From IMG/VR virus record IMGVR_UViG_3300025168_000247, positions 1 to 37,159 of that record: DNA of 37,159 nucleotides; one strand, given 5' to 3'. The notes under the pieces were generated by a model that was given only the letters and a program-made list of their open reading frames with translations, searched no databases and was not told the origin of the DNA. Shown in pieces: positions 8,295 through 28,570 of this stretch (within the stretch, counting starts at the first letter, position 1; each line of letters starts with the position of its first letter). The stretch is from a virus. The position numbers were made by a program, and so were the translations under genes.

Positions 8295-8500
8295 CTGAGT
8301 TTGAATATGGTGATGATATCCCCGAGGAAGTTCTTCTTGAGATTGTCCTTGAATTCAATAGGCATTTTGCTGGGTATGTTAGGGAAGTTGATGCGGACTT
8401 ATTTCAACGAGCAAAAGATTACGCTAGGTCTTTTACTGAACTTGAAGGCTATGACATTTCATTTATAGATATGGAGGAGGATGATGATGCAGACGATTGA
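8291..8500 (+). CDS. Small acidic hypothetical protein
   Basis: A 69-aa very acidic protein (ends DMEEDDDADD) with a probable helix-rich centre (EEVLLEIVLEFNRHFAGYV). The ATG at 8291 is chosen over an in-frame TTG 12 bases upstream because GGAG (8281-8284) sits 6 bases before it and the ATGA overlaps the primase stop. It overlaps thyX by about 14-20 bases; the GGAGGAGG inside its last codons is the thyX ribosome site. No family is recognised. The acidic composition could mean a DNA-mimic or a regulatory partner of a neighbouring enzyme, but nothing in the sequence decides this. Confidence 0.65.
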   Translation: MTEFEYGDDIPEEVLLEIVLEFNRHFAGYVREVDADLFQRAKDYARSFTELEGYDISFIDMEEDDDADD

Positions 8501-9242: not shown

Positions 9243-9926
9243 ATGCCAATATATTGCAATTATTTTGATATAAACTTATATCAAGGACAATCATTTTTTC
9301 TTGATTTATTTTATGCAGATGATTCTAATACTCCTATTGATCTAAATGGAAATACTTACGAGGCTAGTATGCAAGTACGACGTTCTCCATTAGTCGATCA
9401 AAAATTATTATCTCTTAGTAGTAATAACTATCCGAATGGAGTAATTGGTGGCGGTGCTACTGGGTTCTTTGTTGGTTCTTCTGGTAGAATTGGTACCGGG
9501 GGAATTTCTTTAAATTATGGTGGAGAAACTGGTGCTCTCCGGTTGGAAATTGATTATATAACAACCAGCTATATTCCTGCTGGTCGGCATTTTTATGATG
9601 TTGATGTTAAAAATAAAGAGACAAATTTTGTCGATAAGGTTGTTACTGGTACATTTGAAGTTACTGGTGAAGTCACTAGAAGTGCCGACATTACTATTCT
9701 AGAGGAAGATTCTGGTGGTGCGTCCGGGGAACCAATAGACGATGATACTGGAGCAGAAGAAGAAGACGATGGTGGAACCGGAGTTGGTACCGGTAGTACT
9801 AGCACTTCAACTATTACAGCACGAAATGCTCAATATGGTGTTCCGGAGCAGAATAGTGAAAATGAAATTGACTTAAATGTCGCAAGTGATGATGAGGGAA
9901 ACCAACCGGATCCTTATAGATATTGA
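9243..9926 (+). CDS. Tail/fibre-associated virion protein, adaptor-like
   Basis: A 227-aa protein with a beta-rich N-terminal domain (about 1-150). The pattern is 'NLYQGQSFFLDLFYADDSNTP' then IDLNG, a METQ-like strand (ASMQVRRSPL), GRHFYDVDV, and a final GTFEVTGEVTR. It resembles, by eye, small phage proteins carrying a '.G..f.l.l...D....PIDLtG' domain next to fibre genes, often baseplate or fibre adaptors. The last ~75 residues are low complexity, rich in Gly, Ser, Asp and Glu, probably a flexible linker. The start at 9243 is preceded by AAGGAAGGAAG (9226-9236) and an exact late promoter. It is the first gene of the four-gene virion block. The exact family is not identified. Confidence 0.6.
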   Translation: MPIYCNYFDINLYQGQSFFLDLFYADDSNTPIDLNGNTYEASMQVRRSPLVDQKLLSLSSNNYPNGVIGGGATGFFVGSSGRIGTGGISLNYGGETGALRLEIDYITTSYIPAGRHFYDVDVKNKETNFVDKVVTGTFEVTGEVTRSADITILEEDSGGASGEPIDDDTGAEEEDDGGTGVGTGSTSTSTITARNAQYGVPEQNSENEIDLNVASDDEGNQPDPYRY

Positions 9927-12900: not shown

Positions 12901-14849
12901 TGGGTGATGAGGTCGATGGTGAAGAGTGCGGTGTAGATTTCGATCCATCAGTAAAGAATAATTGGTATTACCCACATGACAGACTATATTGGACACAGAG
13001 AGATTTGAACCTTGTACAGTTCGGTAAATATAATCCAGCGGACGAGGAAGCTGGGTGCAATCAGCAGTGTCAGGGACATTTACTTGAATGGGCAAGAAAT
13101 ACTAATCCTGCTACGAGTGACTTAGCTTCAGAATCTTTGTATTGGAATACTGGCGGAAATTATAGAGCGCCAAGTCAATTTGGGCGATCAAGTCCCATTT
13201 GGGGTAATGGAGATAACTTAGGAAACTTCAGACCCGGTAGATATAAGGGCATATACCTATTGAACACTAGAAACAGGAAACTAACCCGTGTTGTTAACAA
13301 TGGCGTTGAGCACAACTATCTACATGAATGTTCCTCGTCACAACCAGATCCTGTGAGTGTGCAAACAAATAATCAGCAACAAACGGCAACATATGAGATA
13401 TTTGAAGAAACCCCATCATATCGTTCATTGTATCTAATATTGCAGGATGATATTGATTGTCAGCCAGGTGATGAACTTCAATTTTTCCCTGCCACAGTTG
13501 CTGACATCGAGGCTCGTGATGCAAACTTTGGTTCAATTAACAGTGTCACTGGTCTTGCTGGAGTTGCAGGCGAAGTGAACTACGGGTTCGTTTACCATCG
13601 AGGTATTCTTGCCTGTGGGATGGGTGCAAGAATACTGAATAACCTTGTTGATAATGATAGCAAAACCATCGATAAAATTGAAGCAGCAAAGGCATTTCCA
13701 AAGTTCTTTGAAGACATTTATATTAGTAGAGCCTCATTATTTGCAAACCCAGTAAATCGAGCTGGTGTGGACGATTATGCTAGTGGTAATTACTTTAGTA
13801 TTGGTACTCTTAACGGTAATTCTACTGGTGGTGGTGATAAGTGGGGATTCCTATGGAGAGCATTAGTAGCAGATCAGGTGGTCAGAAAGAATGGTGCGTC
13901 GGTTGCTGAGTATCATGTTCATGATGCCAATAGAATCCGTGCAGAAGGAACATTTTTAGCTGTTGGAAATCAATATCCGGGTTCCAATGTGGGCGAGGTA
14001 TTCCCAAGCAAGGAACTCTGGCCTCCTGTTCGACAGGATGCCTCTGAGTATGTGCCATACTGTCATAACCCACCAAATGTGACAGCAATACTCACTTCCG
14101 CTGAAATTGTACTATTCGGTAGTGGTAATGGTAGTGGGTTTGATCAAGAAGATGGTCAGTCAATTTCTGTAGCAGTTAATAATCTTGATACAACTGAAGA
14201 GATAGTTGGACCATCACGCGATATGGACGTAATGAAAACTATAATTGGAAAACGCGTAGAACAGCAGGGTCAGACATTGGTAGATCTTGACTGGGAAATT
14301 GCACAGACCAGTATGAGCGCAGAAGAGTATGATAATTACCGAACGTCCGAAGGAATTGTTATTGTTTCTGGTAACGGTGCGGATTCTCCTTCGAACATTA
14401 ACCGGTTTGCAAACAAATCTGGTGACCTTGATGCAAGGGGCATCGGAATTAGTTCTGCAAATAAAGATTATACAGGTAAAGTACAATCTAGTAAAGTTCC
14501 GGAAACGTCCGAACTTAATGCCGTTGGTTATACGGGACACGTTCTGCCCTACGAGAATTATGTTGAGGGTAAAGACCTCTACTGTTGGTATAAGGGAACA
14601 AATAGACCCATCAAGATGGTTAAGTTGGGCGAAATAGTTAACAATGATACCAATGACGATAAGGTTACATTGAATCTTTCGTCTGGTGATGTAGAAAATT
14701 CAATTCACTGGACTCAAGTTTGGGTGTTACCTGACACATATGAAGATGGTTCTTCACTTAAGTTTTGGCCAAAACTTTTCGGAAATGTTCCAACAAAGTT
14801 CCTTGAAAATGTTACATTTTTCTATGCAGATTCTGAAGGCGCATCGTAA
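9978..14849 (+). CDS. Very large virion/fibre-type protein (1623 aa)
   Basis: A 1623-aa beta-rich, Gly/Asn/Asp/Tyr/Trp-rich protein without collagen repeats and without a signal peptide. The N-terminus has a TLRCNYVYS segment resembling CNYMYS near the N-terminus of the 3086-aa protein two genes downstream, perhaps a shared anchoring element. Around residues 55-90, TWTIGSNSPFTYGEFLDG followed by SPWV recalls a 'W.....Y..G.F.dG..WV' pattern I associate with secreted proteins of Planctomycetota-type bacteria; this is a memory-level resemblance. The region with RRAVAQQGVDGVGG and NAGHTDPYDW looks helical, possibly a lyase-like (alpha/alpha) element. Its place between an adaptor-like protein and the collagen-like fibre suggests a tail fibre, receptor-binding or virion-bound glycan-active protein. 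Function is otherwise unknown. GGAG at 9969-9972 supports the start. Confidence 0.6.
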   Translation: MALTTAASQNYAFVETLTYTLRCNYVYSEPPISPVPGQPAEGVGDDPKYPNGRVEEKTVTWTIGSNSPFTYGEFLDGSPWVQDNGDLHLINVDPAPTTAKNAWYEDFNINQTVLNPDFGKTFSQMVGAQAWGVGDLTNFDSTYSANVNYSGGGAGSFTFRCIPDDRGEGGYDGTENYKLYSSQYIPVNNRNSGTNKFGRGSEVHLYPQPFDGRGYLTAGETTTEPREWSGPCSITNLEDVLVDGATPEFVGDCETFLPNVDLADQDWLKNWPARMNWEHAAFESFSGTDPDGNAVSGFEVSSTSGQWDLPAGEVSEYPNGKKFYGTSRGIVPSEGHEQIVRDTGPYTDRDGVVRWSGIWDGSDAASTLKAYDLVVSSISHYDPAVIDIARQQMRDRYEESVENGSQLAADGEFWAKPAGRAEKGLWGFQSGGARYPFMDLYASLTVVPDPKQLPNWTDEDGVVHPGFPENIDSYSSCFRPPVNWDPTDRVSIPFMAETLDVDSYTFDGGNTLRGQVGYPTVGMDSEINGTPQPDQNWILRTIDGAGGEPDIPVYQTLANWVYPLSKSAATAPGEADPYDLYGNINYPNAAYLRMGTHRLWLGACHQDGKVQGFQNSLSVTTSEYGGTMANVLEVLAALGYDRNLSPEELEWHADNPNVGNYGSGFQDALKYLHDVHVAGLPDDYDLRKACRRAVAQQGVDGVGGLISLGKFNQPNAGHTDPYDWMLLQAYLCTEDKRIEYLLKGNVGSGRNDTRKFGAGDNFCQDAIDFFGVRDGPDPMYGAFYNRWNSVGPNGAELMSISNTDSWGVNRYYHNARLENLTVTKVDDYVWEPGIQSPSLNDDTVVRFPNIKITVAPPHATNCDANYTDNIIAMIRAFNLQERQYQENGDPSTQPMCGLRTDGSNNPLIIYPTDPPYVDGYDRQLAGELSGEVLETPLDYVEGVCQYIPDDDIISVNGQKFNYWGGRDGDRNFYELGDEVDGEECGVDFDPSVKNNWYYPHDRLYWTQRDLNLVQFGKYNPADEEAGCNQQCQGHLLEWARNTNPATSDLASESLYWNTGGNYRAPSQFGRSSPIWGNGDNLGNFRPGRYKGIYLLNTRNRKLTRVVNNGVEHNYLHECSSSQPDPVSVQTNNQQQTATYEIFEETPSYRSLYLILQDDIDCQPGDELQFFPATVADIEARDANFGSINSVTGLAGVAGEVNYGFVYHRGILACGMGARILNNLVDNDSKTIDKIEAAKAFPKFFEDIYISRASLFANPVNRAGVDDYASGNYFSIGTLNGNSTGGGDKWGFLWRALVADQVVRKNGASVAEYHVHDANRIRAEGTFLAVGNQYPGSNVGEVFPSKELWPPVRQDASEYVPYCHNPPNVTAILTSAEIVLFGSGNGSGFDQEDGQSISVAVNNLDTTEEIVGPSRDMDVMKTIIGKRVEQQGQTLVDLDWEIAQTSMSAEEYDNYRTSEGIVIVSGNGADSPSNINRFANKSGDLDARGIGISSANKDYTGKVQSSKVPETSELNAVGYTGHVLPYENYVEGKDLYCWYKGTNRPIKMVKLGEIVNNDTNDDKVTLNLSSGDVENSIHWTQVWVLPDTYEDGSSLKFWPKLFGNVPTKFLENVTFFYADSEGAS

Positions 14850-14895: not shown

Positions 14896-17262
14896 ATGGC
14901 CAACAATGCATGTAGAAATGGTGTCACAGTTCGAACTGGTGCTAGGGGTGGTCAGGGTCCAATGGGGCCCGGTGGACCTAGAGGAAATACCGGTGGAACT
15001 GGTCCAGAAGGAACTGGTCCTATTGGACCAACTGGTATTTCTGGACCCACTGGTACAAGCATAACTGGAGCAACTCTCTCTACAAAGGGATTCCCCGCTG
15101 ATGAATCTCACCTTATACTTTACTTCGAAAAATGGGATGGTACTGGTTATACTTTAGATGTTGGTGATGTCCGGGGACCATCTGGTCCTGCTGGTGAATT
15201 TGCTGGTAAGGGTGAAGATGGACCAACTGGTTCTACTGGTTCTACTGGTGCTACTGGTGGAGGTGTAACTGGAGCTACTGGAGCGACTGGTGCTACAGGA
15301 TTTGGTTACACTGCGGCAGGAGTGTCTGGTGATGATCATCTTTATGTTAGAGAATTACTAGCTAATGGGCTTGGTCGAACACTTGATCTAGGAAGAGTTC
15401 TTGGACCAACAGGTGGTACTGGTATTACCGGTTCCTTGGGAACTATTCCATATTTCTATGAATCTGGCACTATCAATGGTAGTACAACAGGATATTTACA
15501 ATTCCCAACATCGGCGTTGGATGCAAAAGACGATTTTGTAGTAACAATTCATGATAGGAATCTGGCATCACATAATAATGTATTAGATTTTCCTGCGGGA
15601 GAACGATTGTATGTGCGTATTGATAATGAAGATGATCCGGGGGTCTATAGTGATTTCTTAGTAACAAACCCCGGAACTAAAACCACCACATTAACAACTT
15701 CGTATTTCACTTATGACTCAGCGAATGTTGACGTATATAATTACAGCAGTGCCTTTGCTGATAAGACAAATTGTAGAGCAATGTTCTTACCACTTCCTTC
15801 TGGTACAACCGGACCTACTGGATCTGTAGGTCCAACCGGAGGTACCGGATATGGATATACTGCTGCCGGAATGTCTGGTATGACACTTGTTATGCGAGAA
15901 TATTTCGGAGAATCTTTGCTTCTTGGTAGAACCTTGGAGTTGGGAGCTATCTTCGGTGTAACTGGTGCGACTGGTCCTACTGGGTCAACGGGAGGAACTG
16001 GTAATACCGGTACTGCAATAACTGGTGGTACTGTTGTTATTGTTGATGATAACACTTCAAATCTTTGGTTATACTTCAGTACTGAGGATGGTACTGGATT
16101 CTCTTCTAATGTTGGTAATGTGCGCGGAATTTCTGGTGCTGCTGCAAACAGGGGCACAACTGGTGCAACCGGTACAACTGGTACAAATGGCGCAACTGGT
16201 GCTACTGGTGCAACTGGTGCTACAGGTGGTGTTGGTTTCCGATACACAGTAATCAGTCCGGGGTCGGCTCCATCTAGTGCTGCTCAGATGACAGAAACAG
16301 TTACTGGTATTTCACTTAATGATGTTGATGCAAATGGATTAGAAGCACAGGGATTTTTCTCTGGAGCACTCAGATCGTTTGTCCCGAATAATATTGTATC
16401 TGTATTTGGTGCTGGTAATACCGGATTTAGAATTTACAAAACAACAGAAGACAGTTTTGTGAATTCTTCGCTCGGTGGGTCTAGGTTTGATCTAGAAAAC
16501 CTTGCATTAATTTCCGGACACAATGGTGGTGTTACACATGCTGTTGGAGATGTCGTAACTGTAACCGTTTCTCTTGCGGGTGGAACAGGACAAACTGGAG
16601 CTGGAGTTACTGGGTTTGGTATATCTGGAGACACAAATCTTGTTGTCCGTGAAGTTCTTGCTGGAACGGGTGTTCTTGGTAGAACGCTTGATCTCGGTAG
16701 AGTTATTGGACCAACAGGTGGTGTTGATGGTGTAACCTATGAGTATATGTTTGGGAACAGTGGTGAAATTGCTGGTCTGAGTTCTGACAGTGGACTCGTC
16801 TTTGACGGACAATGGGAACTTCCAAAGTTAGGGAAGTATCGTGAAAAGATACATCAATTAGCTATGTCAGACATTGAGCTTCGTGAAGGAGTAAGACGAC
16901 TTCATGTTGATCCAATGAATGGTCCAGTGCAAAGATTGAATATCAATATAGACATTTCTACTGATGGGGAATCGCCTCCTACCGCAACTCCACTTCGCTT
17001 TGATTTTAGTACCAAGAGTGATAAAACAACTCCAATCAGTTGGGGCCCGGGACAGGGAGTTACAGTAATAATCGAAGTTGGTGATGTTGTTACTCCAACT
17101 TGGGATAACTCTTCTGGACTCGATCATTTCTTTAGTTCGAGACCATCATTAGAGACTAACCAAACAACCATGCTTTACGTATTGGGTTATAAAGCGGATG
17201 ATGCAACTGGAACTCCCGCAAGGTACTACATAACACACCAGAACTTTGTTGACTTGTCATAG
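14896..17262 (+). CDS. Collagen-like modular tail fibre protein
   Basis: A 788-aa protein built from collagen-type Gly-X-Y stretches (for example GPMGPGGPRGNTGGTG near residues 22-40, and TGATGATGATG runs). These alternate with two recurring non-collagen modules. Module A occurs three times (about 15298-15412, 15847-15966, 16606-16716), with a core '.G.S....L.VRE......LGRTLDLGRV.GPTGG'. Module B occurs twice (about 15061-15180 and 16018-16140), with 'ITG.T......L.LYF...DGTG....VG.VRG'. The C-terminal ~170 residues are a non-repetitive globular region (ELREGVRRLHV..., ending QNFVDLS). Collagen-like repeats are well known in phage tail fibres, where they trimerise. The start follows a weak GGGAAA site. 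A TATAAGAA box at 14874-14881 could be a degenerate late promoter. Confidence 0.8.
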   Translation: MANNACRNGVTVRTGARGGQGPMGPGGPRGNTGGTGPEGTGPIGPTGISGPTGTSITGATLSTKGFPADESHLILYFEKWDGTGYTLDVGDVRGPSGPAGEFAGKGEDGPTGSTGSTGATGGGVTGATGATGATGFGYTAAGVSGDDHLYVRELLANGLGRTLDLGRVLGPTGGTGITGSLGTIPYFYESGTINGSTTGYLQFPTSALDAKDDFVVTIHDRNLASHNNVLDFPAGERLYVRIDNEDDPGVYSDFLVTNPGTKTTTLTTSYFTYDSANVDVYNYSSAFADKTNCRAMFLPLPSGTTGPTGSVGPTGGTGYGYTAAGMSGMTLVMREYFGESLLLGRTLELGAIFGVTGATGPTGSTGGTGNTGTAITGGTVVIVDDNTSNLWLYFSTEDGTGFSSNVGNVRGISGAAANRGTTGATGTTGTNGATGATGATGATGGVGFRYTVISPGSAPSSAAQMTETVTGISLNDVDANGLEAQGFFSGALRSFVPNNIVSVFGAGNTGFRIYKTTEDSFVNSSLGGSRFDLENLALISGHNGGVTHAVGDVVTVTVSLAGGTGQTGAGVTGFGISGDTNLVVREVLAGTGVLGRTLDLGRVIGPTGGVDGVTYEYMFGNSGEIAGLSSDSGLVFDGQWELPKLGKYREKIHQLAMSDIELREGVRRLHVDPMNGPVQRLNINIDISTDGESPPTATPLRFDFSTKSDKTTPISWGPGQGVTVIIEVGDVVTPTWDNSSGLDHFFSSRPSLETNQTTMLYVLGYKADDATGTPARYYITHQNFVDLS
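15061..16716 (+). repeat. Intragenic fibre repeats: Gly-X-Y coding runs plus modules A (x3) and B (x2)
   Basis: The DNA carries many near-tandem ACTGGT/GCTACTGGT-like units coding Thr-Gly repeats (for example 15224-15300 and 16153-16230). Two types of ~35-40-residue non-collagen module recur at spaced positions: type A at about 15298-15412, 15847-15966 and 16606-16716; type B at about 15061-15180 and 16018-16140. The order B-A-A-B-A, with collagen spacers, suggests growth by duplication or recombination within the gene. Confidence 0.75.
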
Positions 17263-17273
17263 GATGTTAATTT

Positions 17274-20200
17274 ATGCTGAATACATTTAGGGTAGTTTTT
17301 GTTACTAAGACAGGGAGCACACCAACAGCTCCTTGTAACTACATGTATTCCGGTAACAGTGGATTCTACTCTTATGATTGGGGTAGTGGTCGTGAAATGG
17401 GCATTGCTGGTCACTATTCGTTTGATAAAAGAACCCCATGGCACTTTACATATAAGTACGGAGCACCTGCACCAGAACTGTCAGAAACAGCGGGTTTAAA
17501 TTCTGGTGTATTATTTGGAAACAATGAATTTGTTGGTGGTGGAACCGGTGCATACATTGGTGGTGGTAACTGGGAAGCGACTGGTAGTAGATCAAAAGAA
17601 CAGGACGCAGTTGGTTATCAAGCCCCAATTGAAGCACCCCCAAATAATCTCCCAGAATCTCAGGTGCGTCCAAACAGAACGGCTGCAATGGCGGGTCTGG
17701 ATGGAGCAACTGGATCTGGCTGTCTTGTAAACAGCCCATGCGAAATACAATATCACGGCCCTGCGTTGTTTTCTAATTTCCAAGATCTTCAATTTGCTCC
17801 TACCGAGCAGTGGAGACCGGGTGCTGGAGGTGGACCACCTGTTCCAACTGTTCCTCCGGGGGTTGTTGAGAAATATCAAGACCAGCGTTATGATGCTAGT
17901 GGCTGGCCAGGAGAACCTAACCAACAGGCCAGTTCTAACTTTGTATTTGATCAACAAGCAAACCGTGCTTGTATCGGATATGGTTGGCACGGAGTTGCTC
18001 CAGAGTTAGCGTCGGGTGATCCGGGATATGTTCCGCGATTAAGAACTACAACCGCGCAGTCCGGCGGGGCAACCGACTCTCAGCGTAAGTTTACTAATAT
18101 GAGCACTGTGGATGTAGATCACCAAGCAACTCCAGTATTTCGTGCTGAAGAAATTACACTACACGCACCCTCAGAATTGTATCATAGAAGATCAAGAATT
18201 ACTGGTTTGTTTCCTGAGCTTCTTCCTAATAGTGAAACGGGTGCAATCAATGTCGGTGCAGTTAATGCTGAAAGTGATCCTATCGGTAGGGGGTATTATA
18301 GGATAGAAAAAGAAATTGCAGTTGATAATCCAAGCGAATGGCCGAAGGGATTGTTCCTCAGTGTTATCGGTGCAGGTGGACCAGCAGGTGCATGTATAAC
18401 TAGTGTTTCAAATGAGTTGGGCTGTCAAACCAATACCAAAGCTAAAATGTGTGTTCCTCATGGTACTGAGGATCTTGACGGTAATCTTCTGGATTATAAA
18501 GCACCCTTTACTGAACCGACACGTCAAGCAGAGCATGGTAAAGAGGCTTCTGCATTTCTGCAATTGTGTCCGGTTGGTTCATATGATGATCGGGGAATTG
18601 ATTTACTTGTTGTTTCTACTCCCGGAAAGGGTGGTGTTGAAAGTTGGTCTGAAGATGGGCTTTTCAATACTACATTCCCCACATGGGAAGAACGTGAAAG
18701 TAAAGTTGAAGTCTATATTGGTGTTGGATTTGATGATATACTAGAAGCAAATCGAGTATGTACATTGCGTGCAGAAGGTGGTCGAGCTGTTCGAGTAGAT
18801 AGCGAATCAAATGGTACTGATATGACATGTGGAGGACTAACTGAAGCGGGTCTTTGTGTATATGATTGCCCAGATGATCCTCCCGCAGCATACAAAGAGG
18901 TTACTGATGCTGTTGGAAATATTGCAGTTCCACCAATTGCGGAACTATCTACTGGTGATCAATTTTTAAAGCTCGGCTTTAGTATTTCCATGCTCTCTGA
19001 AAATATTGCATTCCCATCAGAATTTGCTGACTCAATGGGCATTACTGATTCGACTTCTTGGCACAACAAGACTGGTGGTATTGAGGAATATGCAGAAGAA
19101 GATCACACAATCAATGTGTACCATTATGGTAATATCCATGCTGATCTACAGTCTAAGGGACTTTTACCAAATAAAACTGACTGGGACATGGTGATTAATT
19201 TTGATTCTGCTCAAGATCAATATGACTTTGATAATCATCATATGTGGTGGAGGAATCACACAGGGGCCGGAGTTGAAGGTCAATTGGGGCATGAAAATGC
19301 GCTAAACGCAGGAATTCACCCACTGCAAGAAGGACTATTTACTCCGGGATTCTGTGGTACAGCTACCGGTATTTCTGAGGGAGAAACTGCATTTACTTGT
19401 TGGTTGGACGAAGGAGTTTGGGCCCCCCTTACTATATCAGAGAATTTGCAAACTGTTTTTGGTGGAGTATTGAGCGGTGAATCTCAGGTCACAAAATGTG
19501 ATACTAGTCTTGGGTCTATGGATGATTCCTGCATACTCAATGCAAATTCTGTTGCGGCATATGTCAAGACCCAAGTAGCTGCGTATAATTTTGGTAGTAC
19601 AAATTCAATAGAATTAGAAAACTGTTTAGTTTTTAATCCAGCAGCAATTACGACTGAGTGGTATGCTGATGCAAACCGATATGATTACCGCTGTCCAGCG
19701 GAAGGTGATGATCCAGACACATGTGGTACTTTAGCAGATGGGTCAACTACAGGTCCAAATGGAGAAGAACTATTCCCGGGATGTACATGTCCAGTTTCTT
19801 GTTTTAATTGTCAAACTTCTGGTGGGTTGATTTATGGACTAATTGATTCTGAAACCTGTAAACAATTGGACGGCATATATCTCAGTCAGGGAGAGAGACC
19901 ATCTCTTGTACGTCCAGCCGACGCATTACCAAACAATTCTTGGCCGTTTATAAACGAACGTACAACACTTAATGCTTTAAATCGTTCGATAAGACCGGAG
20001 AATGCGGCAACATTTGAATTGGGTTCTCCTGCTATGTTTAATTGCTTTGGTGGGGATGATCCTGATTATGGTATTGAACCCAATTGGTGGGAATCAGAAA
20101 ACCAGTTCAAGGCTCGGGAGTGGGACAAGCATGTTGGGGGATGGGATAATCAAACTGGGTGTTCTCAATTCCTAAGTCTCCCATACAACCCAAGAAGATG

Positions 20201-23200
20201 GGCTCTTCTAGGAAATGCTAACGGAGTAGATCCATTATACTCTCAGATGATGTATGCTGGATCATACATGGAGCTTGCATATAAAGAATCACTCACCAAG
20301 TCTGCATTTTATATGCGAGATCAAAAATCAGACGGTACACTAAGTCCCCTATACTCTACTTGGAGGAATTGGGTTGATGATAAATGCGCAGATGCAATAC
20401 GTCTTTGGGGTAGAAGAAGAATTATATTTGATCAGAGTGACATGACAAATAGAAATCACCCACTTCGTGTTTATGAAAGTGGTGCTGATTCTTTCAGACA
20501 GATAGGTGATTCTAGTTGTCTTTATGACGAGCTTCCTGATTGGATAAATGACGATCTACCGTTTGGTAGTGGCTGTGGTAATATTGGTGAGTTTAGCATA
20601 CCAATCCCTGATGATGCAGGTGACTGTGTTAATAACAACTATAACTGTGAGATTGCTTATGTGAACTGGGAAACTAATAACTCATGGAATGCATTCAATA
20701 CGTATACTGGGTTCCGAAGAGATTTGATTCCCTTAGATCTACTTACAAATGATATTTCGTATGAGCTAGACGGCGTAATAGTGGATAGTTGGCAGGATTA
20801 TGCCGCCGGGTTCAACGCAGCAGCCACACGAAGAGTTATATTTGATTTCCGGGACAAAGACACCCACTTTGATGATATAGATCCTCGATTGAAATTGCTT
20901 AACTGGATGTACAGTGAAGATAACTCCACTCTGGATGATGTCGGCTGGAGCGTGGGTGCTGGATTGCCAGATGATGACTCGCCGAACGGGGCGTGGATTG
21001 CCGGGGGAGCACCATTCCTTCCGCGATGGGGTCTTAATATGTTCAGTGCAGACATCGATAACGGGTACAGTTCGTTTGGATTAAATGAAGATTTGCCTGC
21101 GGGTGGATCCAAATCTTTATCATTACCAACGAATAGTTTTGGTGTTAATACCACGTCTTCTGGGTTCTGGAGATATGGACTAAATGATCTGAATGAAGAA
21201 TTTGGAGCAGAGCCAAATGGTTATCCATTGGATGGGTTTGATTATAACGCATGTGTTCCACTCCAGTCATTGTGGTATAGGGAAGACACGAGGAACTCTG
21301 CTGGTATTACTTGGAATATGCTTACGAAGGAAAATGAGTGGGGCTTCGGGACTAGTCGTAGAATAAAAACCAGTGGTACCGCAACAGGATATGTTTACGA
21401 ATATGGAACGTGTGGTGGATATGCGAATGCTGTTAGTTGTGTTCTATATGATGGTAATGACGATTTGGTGTCATTTGGATCGGGTGTCAATCAGAATACT
21501 CGTCTACCGGGAGCGGACGCTGCTGGAAACCCGCTCATCAAATGGTCAAAGACCGCACTTGTACAGAGAGCTACTACTAGACCAAATGATAATTTTGATC
21601 CACAATTCTTTGATCCAGACAGAGAAGTTGATGGTGTTGGTCCGGAACCCGGAAGCCGTCCAAGTTTCTGGCGATTAAAAACCCATACGCCATCCTGTCT
21701 AAATGAGTATGATCAACTAGCATTCCCCTCTCAGGGTGTGGGCGACTATACAAGTAATACGGACCTCCATAGATGGAGTGGGTCTGGCCGTAAATTTGGG
21801 TGTGATTTTGACTGGAATAATAATAAATATGCACAACCACTCGGAAGAAGTATTGCATGTGCTACCCCACCATCAATTTCATATACTCTTTATAAGCCCG
21901 GATTACCGGGTGCTGCTGGAAACTTAAAGCTATGGGGACTTAATCCAGAAACAGCATCAGAAGGTGTCGGTGGTAACGGTGGGGAAGCCTACGTTGGGTT
22001 TGGTCCAGTATTTGATACTATGTTTGGTAATTTCCCAGTAGATCCAGAATTCCCAGAACTGGGTCAGCTACCAAGGTTAGAAACCGGTGAATCTGGCTTT
22101 AGTGAGCCAACAGTAGTAGACGAATTTGTTGGTGATCCCACATCTCATGGTTATTATTGTGAACCAATAGTTCGTTGGATTACTCACCCATTCCAAGCAA
22201 TAGGAGCAGAGGGACTTCCCATCGGTATTGCTGCACACCATGTCGAGGGAATTGATAAGGTTGTCTATCAGGCCAATGGTGGACCAAAACTAGAAATTAC
22301 AAGTCGAACTAGAAATTCTGATGGTGTCGAGGGATATTGGGCACGTCTCCGTGATTCTTCCTCGTTTGTCAATGACGGACAGATAAAGGAAATTCGTGCA
22401 GAGATTTATCCAATAAATGGTAAGCCTGTAGTTTTACAGTCCAAGAATCCAACCCACATTGTTCCCACTAGCGACACTCAGCCTGTTACTGATCCAATGA
22501 CCAGTAAGTGTTACCAGAAAGATGTTGATGCTTCTAATTATGCAATGTGGTATTGTGCTACAACATCTAGGGCAGTTTACGTATTAGATCCAACGACGGA
22601 TACATTCGAAAATGCACTGAACAGAATACAGACGTTCAATGATGATCCTGATGGTAACCCATGGATTGATGGGTCTACAGCATCACCAATAATTAAGATT
22701 AAAAATACTAGCCCACTTAAGGCTCCGTGGGACGATACTATTGGTGTGACTTTCTTTGCAGACAACACAATAATTCTTCCCGAATATTGGATCCCGGGAA
22801 TGTTAACAATAGAGCCAGAATTCGCAACTAACCGCGTAGGTTTCACTGGTGATGGTCCATCTGTTATCAGTAGTGCAGATCCTGTAACACACGTTGTTCA
22901 AATAGAGAACAATGCATTTATTCCATCTTCGATTACAGTGAAGCAAGGCGATACAGTTGTGTGGAATTTGGTGAATGGTTTTCACGGTGTTCGGTCTGGG
23001 GTTGGTGATGATGAATGTGGTGATGGTGTTGAATTTAAAAGTCATGACGCCAATTCGGGAACCAGTACAACAGGAACATTGTTAGATTCGGCTGGTAATC
23101 CTTTTGAATGGAATGTTCCTATTGGACTTGATCCGCAAACACTGGATTACAGATGTAGCATTCACTGCGCAGGTATGCCTGGCTCAATAATAATTGAGGA

Positions 23201-26200
23201 GGCGGTTTCTTCTGAACAGCCAGTTGCAAATGCAATGATTGCTGGTAACATAGAGTTTAAGAATTGTGATTTCCATTGGTCAACTAGAATTGAGACATTA
23301 GAGTGGCCAGCAGAAACTGAAAACTTTGATTCGTACTTTGCTTCTCTTAATGATGATGATACTAAGCATGTTACCTATTACTTGAATGGGTGTACATTCG
23401 ACGGTGGAATAGAAGCAAATAAGGAATTGTCAGAGTCCGCCGCTTGGGTTGCAGATGGTATGACGGGTATTGCATGGTTCCACGACCCACGAGCAGGACT
23501 CTACACAAATGCTGGGGATACTACTACGAACCAAACTCCCTTTGGTGGGAACATTATTGGTTCTCATGATGCATATGCATCCCTTGCAACAATGAAAAAT
23601 ACAACTATCTCAAATAGTAACGTAGCAATTTCCTCTGGTACAAATCTTGTCAACACAAATATCGACGGATTTATAGGGAATGCACTAACAGGAATTAATG
23701 CGTCACTTTCTGTTGACATTGATAACCAAAACTTCGGTGTTGCTGGAGGAATCTACCCAGCACACATCTATGCACAGACAGTTGATTTTGCGGGTGGGTT
23801 CAATGGGGATTCGAACCTGACTAATGTTGAATATGCGGCGGGAACGTATGTTCGTTTCTACGATAGTGGTGTTGGATTTGCTATCACTCAAGCTAAGTCA
23901 ACAATTCCAATCGGTTCTCGATTGCTTCGTCCAAATGGAAATCTGGACATTCAGTTGTGGGAGACACCATCTACAATTCTTGATGACAGTATCTTGTGGG
24001 AAACAAAGGAAAACCGAACCGGTAAAAATGTTCTGGTAGTTGATAGCATATGGAACACTGGTATTGTTAGTCAACCACTTCGTTCTTGGGATTCTTATAG
24101 TTATCCTGAAAATGCGGAAACATATGATGTCCAATATAATAACACAGGCAATCTAGATTCGTTCCCATCCGGATATAACAAGATAAGCAATATTGGATTT
24201 ATTCGAACTGACATTACACAGACATCTCTTGGTTCTTTGTTTAACCATCTTGGTGATGGAGTGAACCAACTCGACACACATCTTATCATTGACAGTTGCA
24301 ACTTCTTAGGAACCAATAAGACAGAATTCTCATTGATGGGTGAAGATGCAGTCGTTGGAAATGATATTGGTAATGATCAAATTCTTCCGATCGAAAATGA
24401 ATTCTGGAACGGGGATGTACCGAAAAACAAGAGAACTCGACTACTGAAATATTATAGAAGAGCACCATTCAATACTGCTTCTACTGGTGGTCATGCCATT
24501 AGAAATTCTTCGTTTGATGATGTTCGACTTAATCTTTTGGATATCGAGTTTGGTGGTGCCGCATACAATGGAGCGTTTGGTTCCGATGTAGCAAATGTTG
24601 ACACGAGTGTTAATCCTTCTATTCGGGTACAGGGATCGGAAGTTCCATTCTTTACTTTATGGAATATGTTTGGTGTCACCGTTGAGAACACTACGCACAA
24701 TCAACAAAGTTACGATGTTGTTTCTGATGACACTGCAAACTATGAAGAACGATATCTAAACGGACCAAATGATTATAGTGAGTTACGTCCCGGTGATAAC
24801 TCATCACCATTCCCATTCCGGTTAGGTACGCGCTCTGTAACTGCAACATATTCGTCTGCTAATGTAGACACCACCGAGGGTGGAACAAAGGATGGTGAAG
24901 TTTACCTCACGGTTGATGAACAAACCATGAACGATTTGCAATTGAGTGGTAAGCAATGTGGTGTCTCTGTATTCACTGGAGTAGGAACTAACTGGCCAAA
25001 CGAAGATGATAATGCAAGTAGTACGCCAAATAAAATTGGTGGAATTAACTTCTGGTTCGATAGTCTAGAAAAGGCAACAGACTTTAGAAATCGTGCAAAT
25101 TATCTGACTCGTCTTGAGGTCACGTTCGAAAATGGAAATGGTACTACGGGAGGATACTGGACAACAGAAGACCCACAAATACTGGTTAATGGCAATACAC
25201 AGGCTGTTGGTTTCTGGTATAATAGTGCTGGAAATCAAGATACATTTACGTACAATGATCTCCTAGAAGGTGGAAGTATTTCGTTTGAAGTTAATCCAAT
25301 TCCAGATGGACCTACTACTGTCAATGACAACTGTGACAGCGGTGATGCTGGTGTACTTCGTGTTGGTGAATCCCAACAGTTCTCGACAATACAATCAGCA
25401 ATAACTGCTGCTGTTGATGGTGAATTGATTCTTGTTGATGATGGGGTGTATAGAGAAGCAATCAACTTCCTACGAAAGAAACTAATTATCCGAGGAAACT
25501 TGCTCAATCCAGAAAATTGTGTGATCGACGGTCTAAATGAAGATGGTACTCCGGTCGGTGCTGCTTGGAGTAGACCTGCTTCTGATCCAACTAAGATCTC
25601 TGTGGTCACTGTGGATACGCGAGTTGCTGGTCAGTGTTATGATAACAGTAACCCAGCCGAGGATGAGTTGGATGAGTTCTCTGGATATGAAGTTGGTGAT
25701 AGATCACTCGAAGGGTTTACCATCAGAAACGGTTCCTCTGGTACTCGTTATTCATCAACGGAACCCGGATGCACACCATGTGCTGATGGTTGTGCTGGAC
25801 CCGATTCCCCAATAAATTGTGCAAACACCGAATGCGGTGGACAGATGGAAGGATTCGTTGGTGGTGGTCTCTGGGTATATCGATCATACTTGTCAGTAGG
25901 TGATTGTATCTTTGATAATAATGTTTCTGATGGTGGTGGTGGTGCGTTTGCTAGAGAAAGTAACGTGGAGTTCGCGAATTGTGAGTTCAATAATAATGTA
26001 TCCCGATCTAACGGTGGTGGGTTGCAACTAAATCACTGCATCTCCGAAGTAATGAACTGTAACTTCAATAACAATGAAGCTGATGGTACTGGGGTTTCTG
26101 GTAGTGGACATGGTGGTGCAGTTCACCAGTTCAGTGGTCAGTTGCTGATCATGAATTGTAACTTGCTGAACAACACTTGTGCTGGTAAGGGTGCCGGAAT

Positions 26201-26534
26201 TGATATGAACACACGTCTGGTTCTTTCACAAGCAAGACTTCATGGAAACTCCTCCGTTATTGCCTGTACAATAAATTCGAATACCAGCACCGCTGATGAT
26301 GGGTGTGGTGGACTGTATCTCAAGGCTGGAGAAGTTGGTGACACTGGTGTTGCAGATGCCAAGGTAACGATGTCCGGAACTACAATTTGCGAAAATGTTC
26401 GTGGAGTTGCTCTTGATATATCCAACTTCTGTGAAGGATCAGTACTGGTTGATCAGTTCGAAGACGCCGGATCTAATAACATATGTTCCACCTCAGATCC
26501 AGAACTACCTGAGCAGTGTCCCCCCTACCTTTAA
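17274..26534 (+). CDS. Giant multidomain virion protein (3086 aa) with cupredoxin and beta-helix domains
   Basis: One uninterrupted 3086-aa ORF, among the largest phage proteins. From the N-terminus: a CNYMYS-containing head; a Gly-rich beta region near 350-550; a Cys-rich patch near residues 820-870 (CTCPVSCFNCQTSG); and long beta-rich modules of unknown type. A cupredoxin domain lies at about 1869-1977, with all four expected copper ligands (H1904, C1961, H1964, M1968). A beta-helix-like stretch follows at about 1980-2480 (NCDFHW..., MKNTTISNSNVAISSGTN). A C-terminal right-handed beta-helix (about 2691-3086) begins FSTIQSAITAAVDGELILVD. No signal peptide or collagen repeat is seen. It ends the fibre block, so a distal fibre, tailspike or adhesin role is inferred. 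It lacks a strong ribosome site and starts 11 bases after the fibre gene stop. Confidence 0.7.
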   Translation: MLNTFRVVFVTKTGSTPTAPCNYMYSGNSGFYSYDWGSGREMGIAGHYSFDKRTPWHFTYKYGAPAPELSETAGLNSGVLFGNNEFVGGGTGAYIGGGNWEATGSRSKEQDAVGYQAPIEAPPNNLPESQVRPNRTAAMAGLDGATGSGCLVNSPCEIQYHGPALFSNFQDLQFAPTEQWRPGAGGGPPVPTVPPGVVEKYQDQRYDASGWPGEPNQQASSNFVFDQQANRACIGYGWHGVAPELASGDPGYVPRLRTTTAQSGGATDSQRKFTNMSTVDVDHQATPVFRAEEITLHAPSELYHRRSRITGLFPELLPNSETGAINVGAVNAESDPIGRGYYRIEKEIAVDNPSEWPKGLFLSVIGAGGPAGACITSVSNELGCQTNTKAKMCVPHGTEDLDGNLLDYKAPFTEPTRQAEHGKEASAFLQLCPVGSYDDRGIDLLVVSTPGKGGVESWSEDGLFNTTFPTWEERESKVEVYIGVGFDDILEANRVCTLRAEGGRAVRVDSESNGTDMTCGGLTEAGLCVYDCPDDPPAAYKEVTDAVGNIAVPPIAELSTGDQFLKLGFSISMLSENIAFPSEFADSMGITDSTSWHNKTGGIEEYAEEDHTINVYHYGNIHADLQSKGLLPNKTDWDMVINFDSAQDQYDFDNHHMWWRNHTGAGVEGQLGHENALNAGIHPLQEGLFTPGFCGTATGISEGETAFTCWLDEGVWAPLTISENLQTVFGGVLSGESQVTKCDTSLGSMDDSCILNANSVAAYVKTQVAAYNFGSTNSIELENCLVFNPAAITTEWYADANRYDYRCPAEGDDPDTCGTLADGSTTGPNGEELFPGCTCPVSCFNCQTSGGLIYGLIDSETCKQLDGIYLSQGERPSLVRPADALPNNSWPFINERTTLNALNRSIRPENAATFELGSPAMFNCFGGDDPDYGIEPNWWESENQFKAREWDKHVGGWDNQTGCSQFLSLPYNPRRWALLGNANGVDPLYSQMMYAGSYMELAYKESLTKSAFYMRDQKSDGTLSPLYSTWRNWVDDKCADAIRLWGRRRIIFDQSDMTNRNHPLRVYESGADSFRQIGDSSCLYDELPDWINDDLPFGSGCGNIGEFSIPIPDDAGDCVNNNYNCEIAYVNWETNNSWNAFNTYTGFRRDLIPLDLLTNDISYELDGVIVDSWQDYAAGFNAAATRRVIFDFRDKDTHFDDIDPRLKLLNWMYSEDNSTLDDVGWSVGAGLPDDDSPNGAWIAGGAPFLPRWGLNMFSADIDNGYSSFGLNEDLPAGGSKSLSLPTNSFGVNTTSSGFWRYGLNDLNEEFGAEPNGYPLDGFDYNACVPLQSLWYREDTRNSAGITWNMLTKENEWGFGTSRRIKTSGTATGYVYEYGTCGGYANAVSCVLYDGNDDLVSFGSGVNQNTRLPGADAAGNPLIKWSKTALVQRATTRPNDNFDPQFFDPDREVDGVGPEPGSRPSFWRLKTHTPSCLNEYDQLAFPSQGVGDYTSNTDLHRWSGSGRKFGCDFDWNNNKYAQPLGRSIACATPPSISYTLYKPGLPGAAGNLKLWGLNPETASEGVGGNGGEAYVGFGPVFDTMFGNFPVDPEFPELGQLPRLETGESGFSEPTVVDEFVGDPTSHGYYCEPIVRWITHPFQAIGAEGLPIGIAAHHVEGIDKVVYQANGGPKLEITSRTRNSDGVEGYWARLRDSSSFVNDGQIKEIRAEIYPINGKPVVLQSKNPTHIVPTSDTQPVTDPMTSKCYQKDVDASNYAMWYCATTSRAVYVLDPTTDTFENALNRIQTFNDDPDGNPWIDGSTASPIIKIKNTSPLKAPWDDTIGVTFFADNTIILPEYWIPGMLTIEPEFATNRVGFTGDGPSVISSADPVTHVVQIENNAFIPSSITVKQGDTVVWNLVNGFHGVRSGVGDDECGDGVEFKSHDANSGTSTTGTLLDSAGNPFEWNVPIGLDPQTLDYRCSIHCAGMPGSIIIEEAVSSEQPVANAMIAGNIEFKNCDFHWSTRIETLEWPAETENFDSYFASLNDDDTKHVTYYLNGCTFDGGIEANKELSESAAWVADGMTGIAWFHDPRAGLYTNAGDTTTNQTPFGGNIIGSHDAYASLATMKNTTISNSNVAISSGTNLVNTNIDGFIGNALTGINASLSVDIDNQNFGVAGGIYPAHIYAQTVDFAGGFNGDSNLTNVEYAAGTYVRFYDSGVGFAITQAKSTIPIGSRLLRPNGNLDIQLWETPSTILDDSILWETKENRTGKNVLVVDSIWNTGIVSQPLRSWDSYSYPENAETYDVQYNNTGNLDSFPSGYNKISNIGFIRTDITQTSLGSLFNHLGDGVNQLDTHLIIDSCNFLGTNKTEFSLMGEDAVVGNDIGNDQILPIENEFWNGDVPKNKRTRLLKYYRRAPFNTASTGGHAIRNSSFDDVRLNLLDIEFGGAAYNGAFGSDVANVDTSVNPSIRVQGSEVPFFTLWNMFGVTVENTTHNQQSYDVVSDDTANYEERYLNGPNDYSELRPGDNSSPFPFRLGTRSVTATYSSANVDTTEGGTKDGEVYLTVDEQTMNDLQLSGKQCGVSVFTGVGTNWPNEDDNASSTPNKIGGINFWFDSLEKATDFRNRANYLTRLEVTFENGNGTTGGYWTTEDPQILVNGNTQAVGFWYNSAGNQDTFTYNDLLEGGSISFEVNPIPDGPTTVNDNCDSGDAGVLRVGESQQFSTIQSAITAAVDGELILVDDGVYREAINFLRKKLIIRGNLLNPENCVIDGLNEDGTPVGAAWSRPASDPTKISVVTVDTRVAGQCYDNSNPAEDELDEFSGYEVGDRSLEGFTIRNGSSGTRYSSTEPGCTPCADGCAGPDSPINCANTECGGQMEGFVGGGLWVYRSYLSVGDCIFDNNVSDGGGGAFARESNVEFANCEFNNNVSRSNGGGLQLNHCISEVMNCNFNNNEADGTGVSGSGHGGAVHQFSGQLLIMNCNLLNNTCAGKGAGIDMNTRLVLSQARLHGNSSVIACTINSNTSTADDGCGGLYLKAGEVGDTGVADAKVTMSGTTICENVRGVALDISNFCEGSVLVDQFEDAGSNNICSTSDPELPEQCPPYL
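22878..23204 (+). other. Cupredoxin (plastocyanin-like, type 1 copper) domain inside the giant ORF
   Basis: The coded segment (residues 1869-1977 of the 3086-aa protein) has the full cupredoxin plan: strand VVQIENNAFIPSSITVKQGD, then TVVWNL, a His ligand in NGFHGV (H1904), and the C-terminal ligand loop YRCSIHCAGMPGSI with Cys1961, His1964 and Met1968 (C-x2-H-x3-M), ending in a hydrophobic strand SIIIEEA. An extra Cys sits next to the second His. All four type 1 copper ligands are present, so metal binding is plausible. This domain class is normally found in secreted electron-transfer or copper proteins, not in phage fibres. Confidence 0.85.
25344..26534 (+). other. C-terminal right-handed beta-helix region of the giant ORF
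   Basis: Residues 2691-3086 begin with FSTIQSAITAAVDGELILVD, then GVYREAINFLRKKLIIRG and NPENCVIDG, the usual opening of pectate-lyase-like helices. Repeated rungs follow, such as CIFDNNVSDGGGGAF, CEFNNNVSRSNGGGL and CNFNNNEADGTG. Proteins with this opening and 'GGG' rungs are abundant among Planctomycetota secreted proteins. In phages, beta-helices are typical of tailspikes that bind or cut surface glycans. No catalytic residues could be assigned. Confidence 0.75.
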
Positions 26535-26608: not shown

Positions 26609-28570
26609 ATGTGTGAAAACCTTCCTTCGTTATATCAGTCGTTCATTCATCTATCACGGTACTCTCGTTGGCTTCCTGAAAAGGCTCGACGAGAAACATG
26701 GTCAGAAACAGTAACTCGATACTTTGATTTCTTTGAGGAGCATCTCAAGGAGTATCATAATTATATCGTACCAAAGAAAGAAAGAGAAGAACTGGAAAAA
26801 GCGGTTCTTAGTCTAGAAATTATGCCTTCTATGAGAGCACTCATGACGGCCGGTGATGCCCTCAAGAGGGATAATATCGCAGGGTACAATTGTTCCTTTG
26901 TAAGTGCAGGGAGAGTTCGTTCCTTTGATGAAATTCTATATGTGTTGATGTGTGGTACTGGAGTTGGGTTCAGTGTCGAGCGGGACTTCCTAAAGAAGTT
27001 GCCTACTATTGCAGAGGAGTTTGAGGACAGTGATACAACTATTGTTGTTCAGGATAGTAAGATGGGTTGGGCTAAAGCCTACAAGGAACTTACCTCCTTG
27101 CTTATTGGAGGTCAGATTCCCAAGTGGGATCTCTCGAAGATTCGACCTGCCGGAGCGAAACTCAAAACTTTCGGTGGTAGAGCTTCGGGGCCAAAACCAC
27201 TGGACGATCTTTTCCGATTCACAGTGGAAACCTATCAGAAAGCTAATGGAAGAAAACTCACATCCATCGAATGTCACGATATCGTCTGTAAAATTGCTGA
27301 GATTGTCGTTGTTGGGGGAGTACGTAGAAGTGCCCTTATCTCACTCTCTTCCCTTACCGATGAGCGGATGCGAGATGCGAAGCACGGCCAGTGGTGGATT
27401 TCCGACCCACAAAGAGCACTATCGAATAACTCAGTAGCCTATCGTGAGCAGCCAGAAATTGGTACGTTCATGGAAGAGTGGGTGTCTCTATACAAGAGTA
27501 AGTCTGGTGAACGTGGCATCTTCAATCGTGATGCTGCACAGAAGCAGATTGAAAGAGCAAATGAACATCGACAGGGTATGGGAGAAGAGTATCGTCTTCG
27601 TGAGTCTGATCATGAGTTTGGCACGAATCCATGCAGTGAAATTATCCTTCGGGATAAGGAGTTCTGTAATCTCACAGAGATCGTAGTCCGTGGTGATGAT
27701 ACCGCAGAGTCTCTAGAGAGAAAGGTTAGACTTGCCACTGTTCTTGGTACATGGCAATCTACTCTCACCAACTTTAAGTACCTTTCAAGTGAGTGGGAAC
27801 GTAACTGCGAAGATGAACGACTTCTCGGTGTATCAATGACTGGTATCATGGACTGCAAGCTCACTAACGGTAAGTCTAAGGGACTAGAAGACCTTCTGAC
27901 GCATCTCAAGACTACTGCTATCAAGGAGAACAAGAAATCCGCGAAGAGCATTGGAATCAATGAATCTGTTGCTATTACTTGCGTGAAACCCAGTGGAACC
28001 GTATCTCAGCTTGTAGACGCAGCATCGGGGATCCACGCTCGTCACAACCCATACTACGTCCGTACAGTACGCGCTGATGTCAAGGATCCTCTGTGTATCT
28101 TTATGGATAATGAGGGGTTCCCATGTGAGCCAGATGTCATGAAGCCAGAGCACACCATGGTATTCTCATTCCCGATGAAGACACCGAAGAATGCTGTGTT
28201 CCGCACAGACATGACAGCAATTGAACAACTTGAACTTTGGTTGATTTATCAAAGATATTGGTGTGAACACAAGCCATCTATTACTGTTTCTGTGAAGGAA
28301 GAAGAGTGGATGGGTGTGGGAGCATGGGTCTGGGAACATTTTGACGAGGTATCTGGAGTTTCATTCCTACCTTTCTCAGACCATACATATAGACAAGCTC
28401 CTTATCAGGATTGCACTGTTGAGGAATATAAAGAACTTTTATCATCCATGCCACAGGAAGTGGACTGGAGTAAACTAGGAGAGTACGAACAGGAAGATAA
28501 TACGGCAGGAACGCAGACGTTTGCCTGTTCTGGAAATTCATGCGAAGTAGTTGACTTAACAACAACTTGA
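26609..28570 (+). CDS. nrdJ: Class II (adenosylcobalamin-dependent) ribonucleotide reductase, monomeric RTPR type
   Basis: Reduces ribonucleotides to deoxyribonucleotides using a B12-generated thiyl radical, so no oxygen or small subunit is needed. 653 aa. Visible residues: C95 in GYNCSFV and C353 in FCNL, the likely active-site disulfide pair; NPCSEI with C342 (thiyl) and E344; FGGRASGP at 188-194; and a C-terminal C640-x4-C645 pair (ACSGNSCEV) that would re-reduce the active site. These match the Lactobacillus-type monomeric enzyme, which is somewhat longer (~740 aa). Substrate level (di- or triphosphate) is inferred as triphosphate. No nrdA/nrdB or thioredoxin gene is visible. The ATG at 26609 has GGAG 10 bases upstream. 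A B12-using or B12-scavenging host is implied. Confidence 0.92.
   Translation: MCENLPSLYQSFIHLSRYSRWLPEKARRETWSETVTRYFDFFEEHLKEYHNYIVPKKEREELEKAVLSLEIMPSMRALMTAGDALKRDNIAGYNCSFVSAGRVRSFDEILYVLMCGTGVGFSVERDFLKKLPTIAEEFEDSDTTIVVQDSKMGWAKAYKELTSLLIGGQIPKWDLSKIRPAGAKLKTFGGRASGPKPLDDLFRFTVETYQKANGRKLTSIECHDIVCKIAEIVVVGGVRRSALISLSSLTDERMRDAKHGQWWISDPQRALSNNSVAYREQPEIGTFMEEWVSLYKSKSGERGIFNRDAAQKQIERANEHRQGMGEEYRLRESDHEFGTNPCSEIILRDKEFCNLTEIVVRGDDTAESLERKVRLATVLGTWQSTLTNFKYLSSEWERNCEDERLLGVSMTGIMDCKLTNGKSKGLEDLLTHLKTTAIKENKKSAKSIGINESVAITCVKPSGTVSQLVDAASGIHARHNPYYVRTVRADVKDPLCIFMDNEGFPCEPDVMKPEHTMVFSFPMKTPKNAVFRTDMTAIEQLELWLIYQRYWCEHKPSITVSVKEEEWMGVGAWVWEHFDEVSGVSFLPFSDHTYRQAPYQDCTVEEYKELLSSMPQEVDWSKLGEYEQEDNTAGTQTFACSGNSCEVVDLTTT

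Follow-up and report, generated by a model that had tools for sequence, protein, structure and literature searches.

The stretch of DNA analysed here is the full 37,159-base IMG/VR virus record IMGVR_UViG_3300025168_000247 (the window), a 37-kb piece of an uncultured phage. A DNA polymerase (phrog_262), UvsX, gp41, gp61 and a ribonucleotide reductase (RNR) assign it to the T4-like myoviruses, and the polymerase is at most 52% identical to those of sequenced phages, with Synechococcus phages as the closest. The record represents a T4-like virus of bacteria, probably a marine one. Between its thymidylate synthase and RNR genes lies an island of large open reading frames (ORFs), one of which encodes 3086 amino acids. 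Judged from their sequence, residues 1869-1977 of this product form a true cupredoxin domain of plastocyanin type, in which the type-1 copper site is complete. The coordinates are collected in Table 1.

A preliminary description had placed an intact cupredoxin at these residues and had expected a Pfam search to recognize it. When the whole ORF was searched with PF00127, the stretch scored 19.9 bits (E 0.001), under the family cutoff of 21.2, so that the first-pass evidence was marginal. Once excised, the same stretch, which is translated in frame and without a stop, scored 26.9 bits (E 6.5e-6), above the cutoff, and was also matched by the plastocyanin model TIGR02656 with an E-value of 5.9e-5 (23.4 bits against a cutoff of 87.85). 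We then aligned the domain with ten homologues from Planctomycetota (alignment A4, 11 rows). The A4 profile matched plastocyanins (6.5e-13), amicyanins (4.7e-9) and pseudoazurins (1.3e-7) in the PDB, and it aligns with solved plastocyanins from nearly end to end, which bears on the eight-stranded Greek-key beta-sandwich of that fold. Both the position of the domain and the expected Pfam match were thus borne out.

The four ligands named in the preliminary description, H1904, C1961, H1964 and M1968, are numbered exactly by codon position. They follow the type-1 arrangement of the PF00127 group, His...Cys-x2-His-x(2-4)-Met, and all four are kept in 11 of the 11 rows of A4. Ten columns of the alignment are invariant (P16, G24, D25, W29, H36, Y91, C93, H96, M100 and G102), four of them being the copper ligands. 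The loop that carries the last three ligands was considered as an unusual feature, and this was rejected because Planctomycetota homologues share its spacing: the closest of them keep C-x2-H-x3-M, which in L182 and L183 reads 'CSIHLPVM' and 'CIVHLPGM'. No viral sequence matched the loop in its exact form, YxC[ST]xHCxGMxG, and the bacterial matches were chance ones. The domain contains three cysteines, at 1915, 1961 and 1965, and a disulfide between Cys1915 and Cys1965 is conceivable.

Bacterial relatives were sampled in two phyla only. Among Planctomycetota, 20 of 294 genomes match the domain at E<=0.001, with identities of 36-43% and a best match of 41% over 105 residues (E 4.4e-12). These are plastocyanin-like proteins, and many of their N-termini resemble a signal peptide by eye. 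Weaker matches exist in Bacteroidota (5/297 genomes, the best at 1.5e-4). With sampling limited to these two phyla, Planctomycetota as sole donor was rejected, and no donor or host is claimed. The last ~480 residues of the 3086-amino-acid ORF resemble secreted repeat proteins present in 36 of 199 Planctomycetota genomes, which may be read as beta-helices. Since both the cupredoxin and the C-terminal repeats match Planctomycetota proteins, the ORF is a mosaic of modules resembling bacterial exported proteins, set inside a fibre island. Neither the domain nor the full ORF had relatives in direct searches of IMG/VR and of 50,697 phage records (for the ORF, none in the phage records at E<=1e-5), which indicates that the window type of cupredoxin is rare.

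To place the island, the RNR was used as bait and gave 80 syntenic loci. Both thymidylate synthase and RNR are present in 56 loci, several of them near-duplicates. The gap between these two genes is 60 bases or less in 38 of the 56 loci; in the other 18, the window among them, it is filled by an insert of 0.5-17.4 kb. The insert usually opens with a phrog_1084 gene, which resembles a tail fibre assembly family, and large fibre-like ORFs follow. That of the window is the longest among the loci compared: it spans 17,355 bases and contains three ORFs, of 1623, 788 and 3086 amino acids. Fibre and fibre-assembly genes thus adjoin the 3086-amino-acid ORF and the islands of relatives encode fibres, while the ORF itself shows no homology to fibre families. 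It can be said that its product is probably host-binding.

Table 1. Features of the window and of related viral loci. Coordinates without a prefix are positions in the window.
Feature	Coordinates	Strand	Remarks
Thymidylate synthase gene (labelled thyX), island left border	8481..9224	+	phrog_85 1.8e-66
227-amino-acid protein, island start	9243..9926	+	phrog_1084 / phrog_3304 (L-shaped tail fibre assembly)
1623-amino-acid ORF within fibre island	9978..14849	+	no family match
788-amino-acid tail fibre protein, same island and direction	14896..17262	+	phrog_6320 and other tail fibre families 6.5e-16; collagen-like stretch (weak Collagen match)
3086-amino-acid ORF, mosaic giant fibre/adhesin-type protein with cupredoxin domain	17274..26534	+	ATG start, open throughout
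Plastocyanin/azurin-type cupredoxin domain, residues 1869-1977	22878..23204	+	in frame, no stop
His1904, first copper ligand	22983..22985	+	invariant in A4
Cys1915	23016..23018	+	candidate disulfide pair with Cys1965
Cys1961, thiolate copper ligand	23154..23156	+	invariant in A4
His1964, second His ligand	23163..23165	+	invariant in A4
Cys1965	23166-23168		candidate disulfide pair with Cys1915
Met1968, axial ligand	23175..23177	+	invariant in A4; C-x2-H-x3-M spacing shared with Planctomycetota relatives
RNR, island right border	26609..28570	+	phrog_367 4e-187
Gram-negative porin, 342 amino acids	28869-29897	+	Porin_4 1.3e-9; directly behind RNR
Cytidylyltransferase-type protein, 952 amino acids	34178-37036	-	
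L042 island, thymidylate synthase	L042: end 3947		
L042 island, GHPF-type fibre	L042: 4911-8234		
L042 island, RNR	L042: 10001		
G008 island, thymidylate synthase	G008: end 11099		
G008 island, phrog_1084	G008: end 11516		
G008 island, GHPF-type fibre	G008: ~16037-19282		
G008 island, RNR	G008: ~25271		
Ligand-less GHPF-family copy (L087/L235)	G001:C1:18111-18470		in a 459-amino-acid ORF
S-H9-1 subtilisin-like protease	L206:815-2818		C-terminal cupredoxin domain
Stand-alone cupredoxin gene behind gp41	L208:6679-7149		~157 amino acids
Stand-alone cupredoxin gene behind gp41	L212:2224-2694		~157 amino acids
Stand-alone cupredoxin gene behind gp41	L213:3803-4282		~157 amino acids
Stand-alone cupredoxin gene behind gp41	L215:4742-5212		~157 amino acids
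Cytidylyltransferase-type ORF	L209:10238-13225		internal plastocyanin-type domain; metalloprotease-like region
Cytidylyltransferase-type ORF	L211:9281-12931		internal plastocyanin-type domain (type match weaker)
ORF noted together with those of L209 and L211	L219:3860-7828		

A second kind of cupredoxin was found through a PHROG match of the window domain to the C-terminus of phrog_677 (gp9), with an E-value of 1e-4. Its signature is '(S)GHPFxIQ...LYYxCxxHxxMxG'. One GHPF-type query domain recovered 353 of the 50,697 phage records, nearly all of them cyanophages, and an alignment-based scan of IMG/VR gave 483 stretches of the family. Marine T4-like phages carry it in proteins annotated as fibres or as baseplate components (gp9, gp10). 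In P-SSM2, the tail spike PSSM2_298 carries two copies and the tail fibre PSSM2_028 one copy between collagen-like stretches; in Syn33, S-SSM5 and P-TIM68 the domain forms the C-terminus of gp9. Syn33 has an extra, more diverged copy ('GHPM...YYYCKVHRYM') in a 1721-amino-acid ORF beside gp9, annotated as a baseplate wedge subunit. The podovirus P-GSP1 has the domain in a protein of its fibre region, and a phage of Actinomycetia also carries the type. A cupredoxin in a tail fibre is therefore not a one-off, which corrects the preliminary description, where no described case in a tail fibre or adhesin was known. Outside fibres, the subtilisin-like protease of S-H9-1, which adjoins structural genes, ends in an intact cupredoxin domain, and the peptidase S8 of S-BM3 (H132), likewise a cyanophage subtilisin-like protease near structural genes, also matches the family.

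All four ligands (H, C, H, M) are kept in 100 of the 101 GHPF-family domains of the loci examined, and in 21 of the 21 representatives below 60% identity, whose mean pairwise identity is 45%. An alignment of 36 fibre-family rows (A3) has 13 invariant columns, all four ligands among them. The peptide patterns of the family-finding scan contained SGHPF, so that conservation of the first His is biased; the Cys, the second His and the Met were absent from these patterns. A looser loop pattern, Y-x-C-x2-H-x(2-4)-M-x-G, was counted 87 times in the fibre cupredoxin family (91 ORFs), against 0 times in the other viral-locus ORFs, which total 964,637 residues. Taken together, the invariance in 11/11 plastocyanin-type and 100/101 fibre-type domains suggests that the ligands are under selection, and the loss of ligands at random among homologues, which the preliminary description had named as grounds for refuting it, was not observed, the one clear exception being L087, from a relative of the window phage.

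By sequence against the PDB, the fibre family was not placed (E-values 0.16 or worse), and its Pfam matches are mostly below cutoff, the exception being PF00127 with 23.3 bits in PSSM2_298. AlphaFold on A3 gave a mean predicted local distance difference test score (pLDDT) of 86.1 and a predicted template modelling score of 0.79, for the fibre family and not for the window domain. When this model was submitted to Foldseek, the 50 best PDB matches were all of cupredoxin fold (best E 1.4e-5, template modelling score ~0.5), including rusticyanin, AcoP, pseudoazurin, auracyanin, plastocyanin, laccases and nitrite reductase. The modelled fold of the GHPF family is that of a cupredoxin. In addition, A3 scored 26.7 bits with PF25489, named for the plant protein At5g54830 (cutoff 27), and from this near-cutoff score distant eukaryotic relatives of the fibre family are possible.

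The syntenic relatives L042 and G008/L024 encode a GHPF-type cupredoxin in fibre ORFs at the same island. The window domain is not a member of that family: it has the full N-terminal plastocyanin strands, lacks GHPF and carries H-x3-M rather than H-x2-M, and the fibre profile aligns with it over the last ~35 residues only. What the two types share is the set of H, C, H and M in virion-type proteins, and their meeting in one island. Two distinct cupredoxins in one fibre slot indicate that such domains were recruited there more than once.

Among known systems, the window domain stands closest to the plastocyanin/azurin cupredoxins (PF00127), especially the exported ones of Planctomycetota, with which it shares the profile, the strand motifs, the four ligands and, in L182 and L183, the loop length. 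The relatives examined are mostly bacterial proteins of 185-402 amino acids, besides some larger open frames, whereas the window domain is a module of a 3086-amino-acid phage protein. The phage plastocyanin PetE (phrog_515), an auxiliary metabolic gene product of cyanophages, has the same fold and ligands; however, it is produced by the host cell as a free electron carrier, while the window domain is embedded in a giant fibre-island protein and falls below the TIGR02656 cutoff, and tblastn of the domain did not recover petE at E<=0.1. On phage tails and capsids, beta-sandwich display domains such as the Ig-like ones are likewise accessory modules of varied position and number. They have no conserved metal site, whereas the cupredoxins keep one.

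Further cupredoxins were recovered when a looser DNA pattern was used. Plastocyanin-type domains lie within ORFs of 590-1411 amino acids (several incomplete) of seven other viral contigs, and the same search gave small stand-alone cupredoxins in five contigs; in four of these, which are T4-like, the gene directly follows gp41 (a DnaB-type helicase). The gene behind gp41 is possibly an auxiliary gene. In L209, and with a weaker type match in L211, the ORF that carries the internal plastocyanin-type domain is of the cytidylyltransferase type; an ORF of L219 was noted together with these, and the window has a protein of this type of its own. A protein annotated as a putative cytidylyltransferase (T4-GC190) was detected in purified S-SM1 virions (PMC3037559), and it may correspond to the present ORFs.

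Directly behind the RNR of the window lies a porin gene. Homologues of its product (35-77% identity) make up 44 ORFs over the 80 RNR-linked loci of this phage lineage, and searches of 50,697 phage records and 72,556 plasmid records found no match. This lineage-conserved phage porin may serve in receptor masking or superinfection exclusion.

Cupredoxins generally make protein contacts via a hydrophobic face around the C-terminal His; this face is formed by a loop that the metal keeps in place. The favoured reading, to which we give a probability of about 0.5, is that the window domain, as one part of a giant, beta-rich fibre-island protein, is a surface-displayed, metal-holding docking module of the adsorption apparatus. 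The folded domain would bind copper or a similar soft metal, and the metal would lock the C-x2-H-x3-M loop against the strand of His1904, so that the exposed hydrophobic face near the C-terminal His is fixed. Shown on a fibre, this face might touch a structure of the host surface. Similar phages would do likewise with the independently recruited cupredoxin type in their fibres, gp9 and gp10. The preliminary description had offered a binding scaffold, a redox or copper sensor and a mimic of host partners; among these, a binding or docking module suits the genomic context best, and nothing found specifically favours the sensor or the mimic.

The domain may instead be a scaffold only, a stable beta-sandwich like the Ig-like domains, with its ligands kept for folding stability and copper without a role. 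Phage fibres often display beta-sandwich domains; the placement between collagen-like stretches in PSSM2_028, and in the collagen-rich ORFs L161 and L137, is spacer-like, and one copy of the fibre family is without ligands. A pure scaffold is nevertheless disfavoured because loss of the Cys and Met would then be frequent, yet 100/101 copies keep the ligands despite ~45% pairwise identity among representatives, and we regard it as rather unlikely. All the type-1 ligands are retained, down to the axial Met, which goes beyond the needs of a structural zinc-like site and would suit a redox- or copper-responsive switch, in which Cu(I)/Cu(II) cycling, or loading only near the cell, alters the conformation or affinity of the fibre at the host surface. 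The redox state of the cyanobacterial surface varies with light, and the fibre-family hosts are mostly photosynthetic cyanobacteria. A switch nevertheless seems unlikely. Neither a partner for redox exchange nor another metal site or linked domain was seen, one phage with the domain infects an actinobacterium that is not photosynthetic, and the fibre family has matches in two Pelagibacter phage records. In an extension of the switch, the cupredoxins of gp9, gp10 and the fibres of marine T4-like phages would carry copper, and the oxidation state of this metal, or its loading at the host surface, would gate irreversible attachment; the window phage would have arrived at such a device with another cupredoxin. 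This extension is speculative and quite unlikely.

Two other explanations place the domain differently. It is improbable that the 3086-amino-acid protein is no fibre at all but cargo of the phage genome, either exported or acquired from a host: the ORF stands in line with tail fibre and fibre-assembly genes, in an island where relatives encode fibres, and its N-terminus has no obvious signal peptide by eye. Such an origin would agree with the want of a PHROG match, with the likeness of both the cupredoxin and the C-terminal repeats to secreted Planctomycetota proteins, and with the ORF start, where a known virion attachment domain was not seen. It seems highly improbable that the domain is a mimic or bait that binds the usual cupredoxin partners among host copper or electron-transfer proteins. 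Its likeness to plastocyanin-type docking proteins, and the free petE present in many T4-like cyanophages, would speak for this; but plastocyanin partners sit in the thylakoid lumen or periplasm and not at the outer surface, the fibre type is distant from cyanobacterial plastocyanin, and the window type is nearest, within the searches made, to exported Planctomycetota proteins.

Several observations weigh against a metal-holding docking module on a fibre. A PHROG search of the 3086-amino-acid ORF returned no family at E<=0.1, and it is the gene position and the neighbours that suggest a place in the virion for its product; binding of metal by the domain is likewise predicted from its residues. 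AlphaFold run on the window domain without an alignment reached a pLDDT of 49.7, and the Foldseek matches of that low-confidence model are meaningless. The best-annotated ORFs with an internal plastocyanin-type domain are of the cytidylyltransferase type, a different large phage protein, and therefore not every cupredoxin of these phages is a fibre module. The ligand-less copy of the fibre family (L087/L235) has Y, S and K in place of ligands with the Met kept, and it belongs to a relative of the window phage whose RNR is 93% identical (L003/G001); its existence indicates that the fold can serve without metal. Finally, copper as a force-bearing mechanical staple is unlikely, because the Cu-ligand bonds of cupredoxins are mechanically weak and rupture at ~45 pN (PMC4532836).

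In the open-licence papers covered, no description was found of cupredoxin, plastocyanin or copper-binding domains in phage fibres, gp9 or virions. A paper on the tail structure of cyanophage A-1(L) was considered as a precedent and rejected, since it mentions no cupredoxin and its gp9 is a sheath protein, not T4 gp9. Fibre cupredoxins are provisionally regarded as undescribed, because the literature covered was open-licence and some such proteins may already carry an automated domain label. What is new here is that a known fold appears to serve as a phage fibre module with its predicted metal site retained. Type-1 copper sites are familiar from electron transfer and copper oxidases. An intact type-1 site recurs in proteins by which phages settle on their hosts, including gp9, where fibres join the baseplate, and this suggests an overlooked use of copper in viral attachment. 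If copper is bound, attachment of marine phages would depend on a trace metal. The domain also offers a way to annotate many fibre proteins of marine viromes that are loosely named or called 'hypothetical'.

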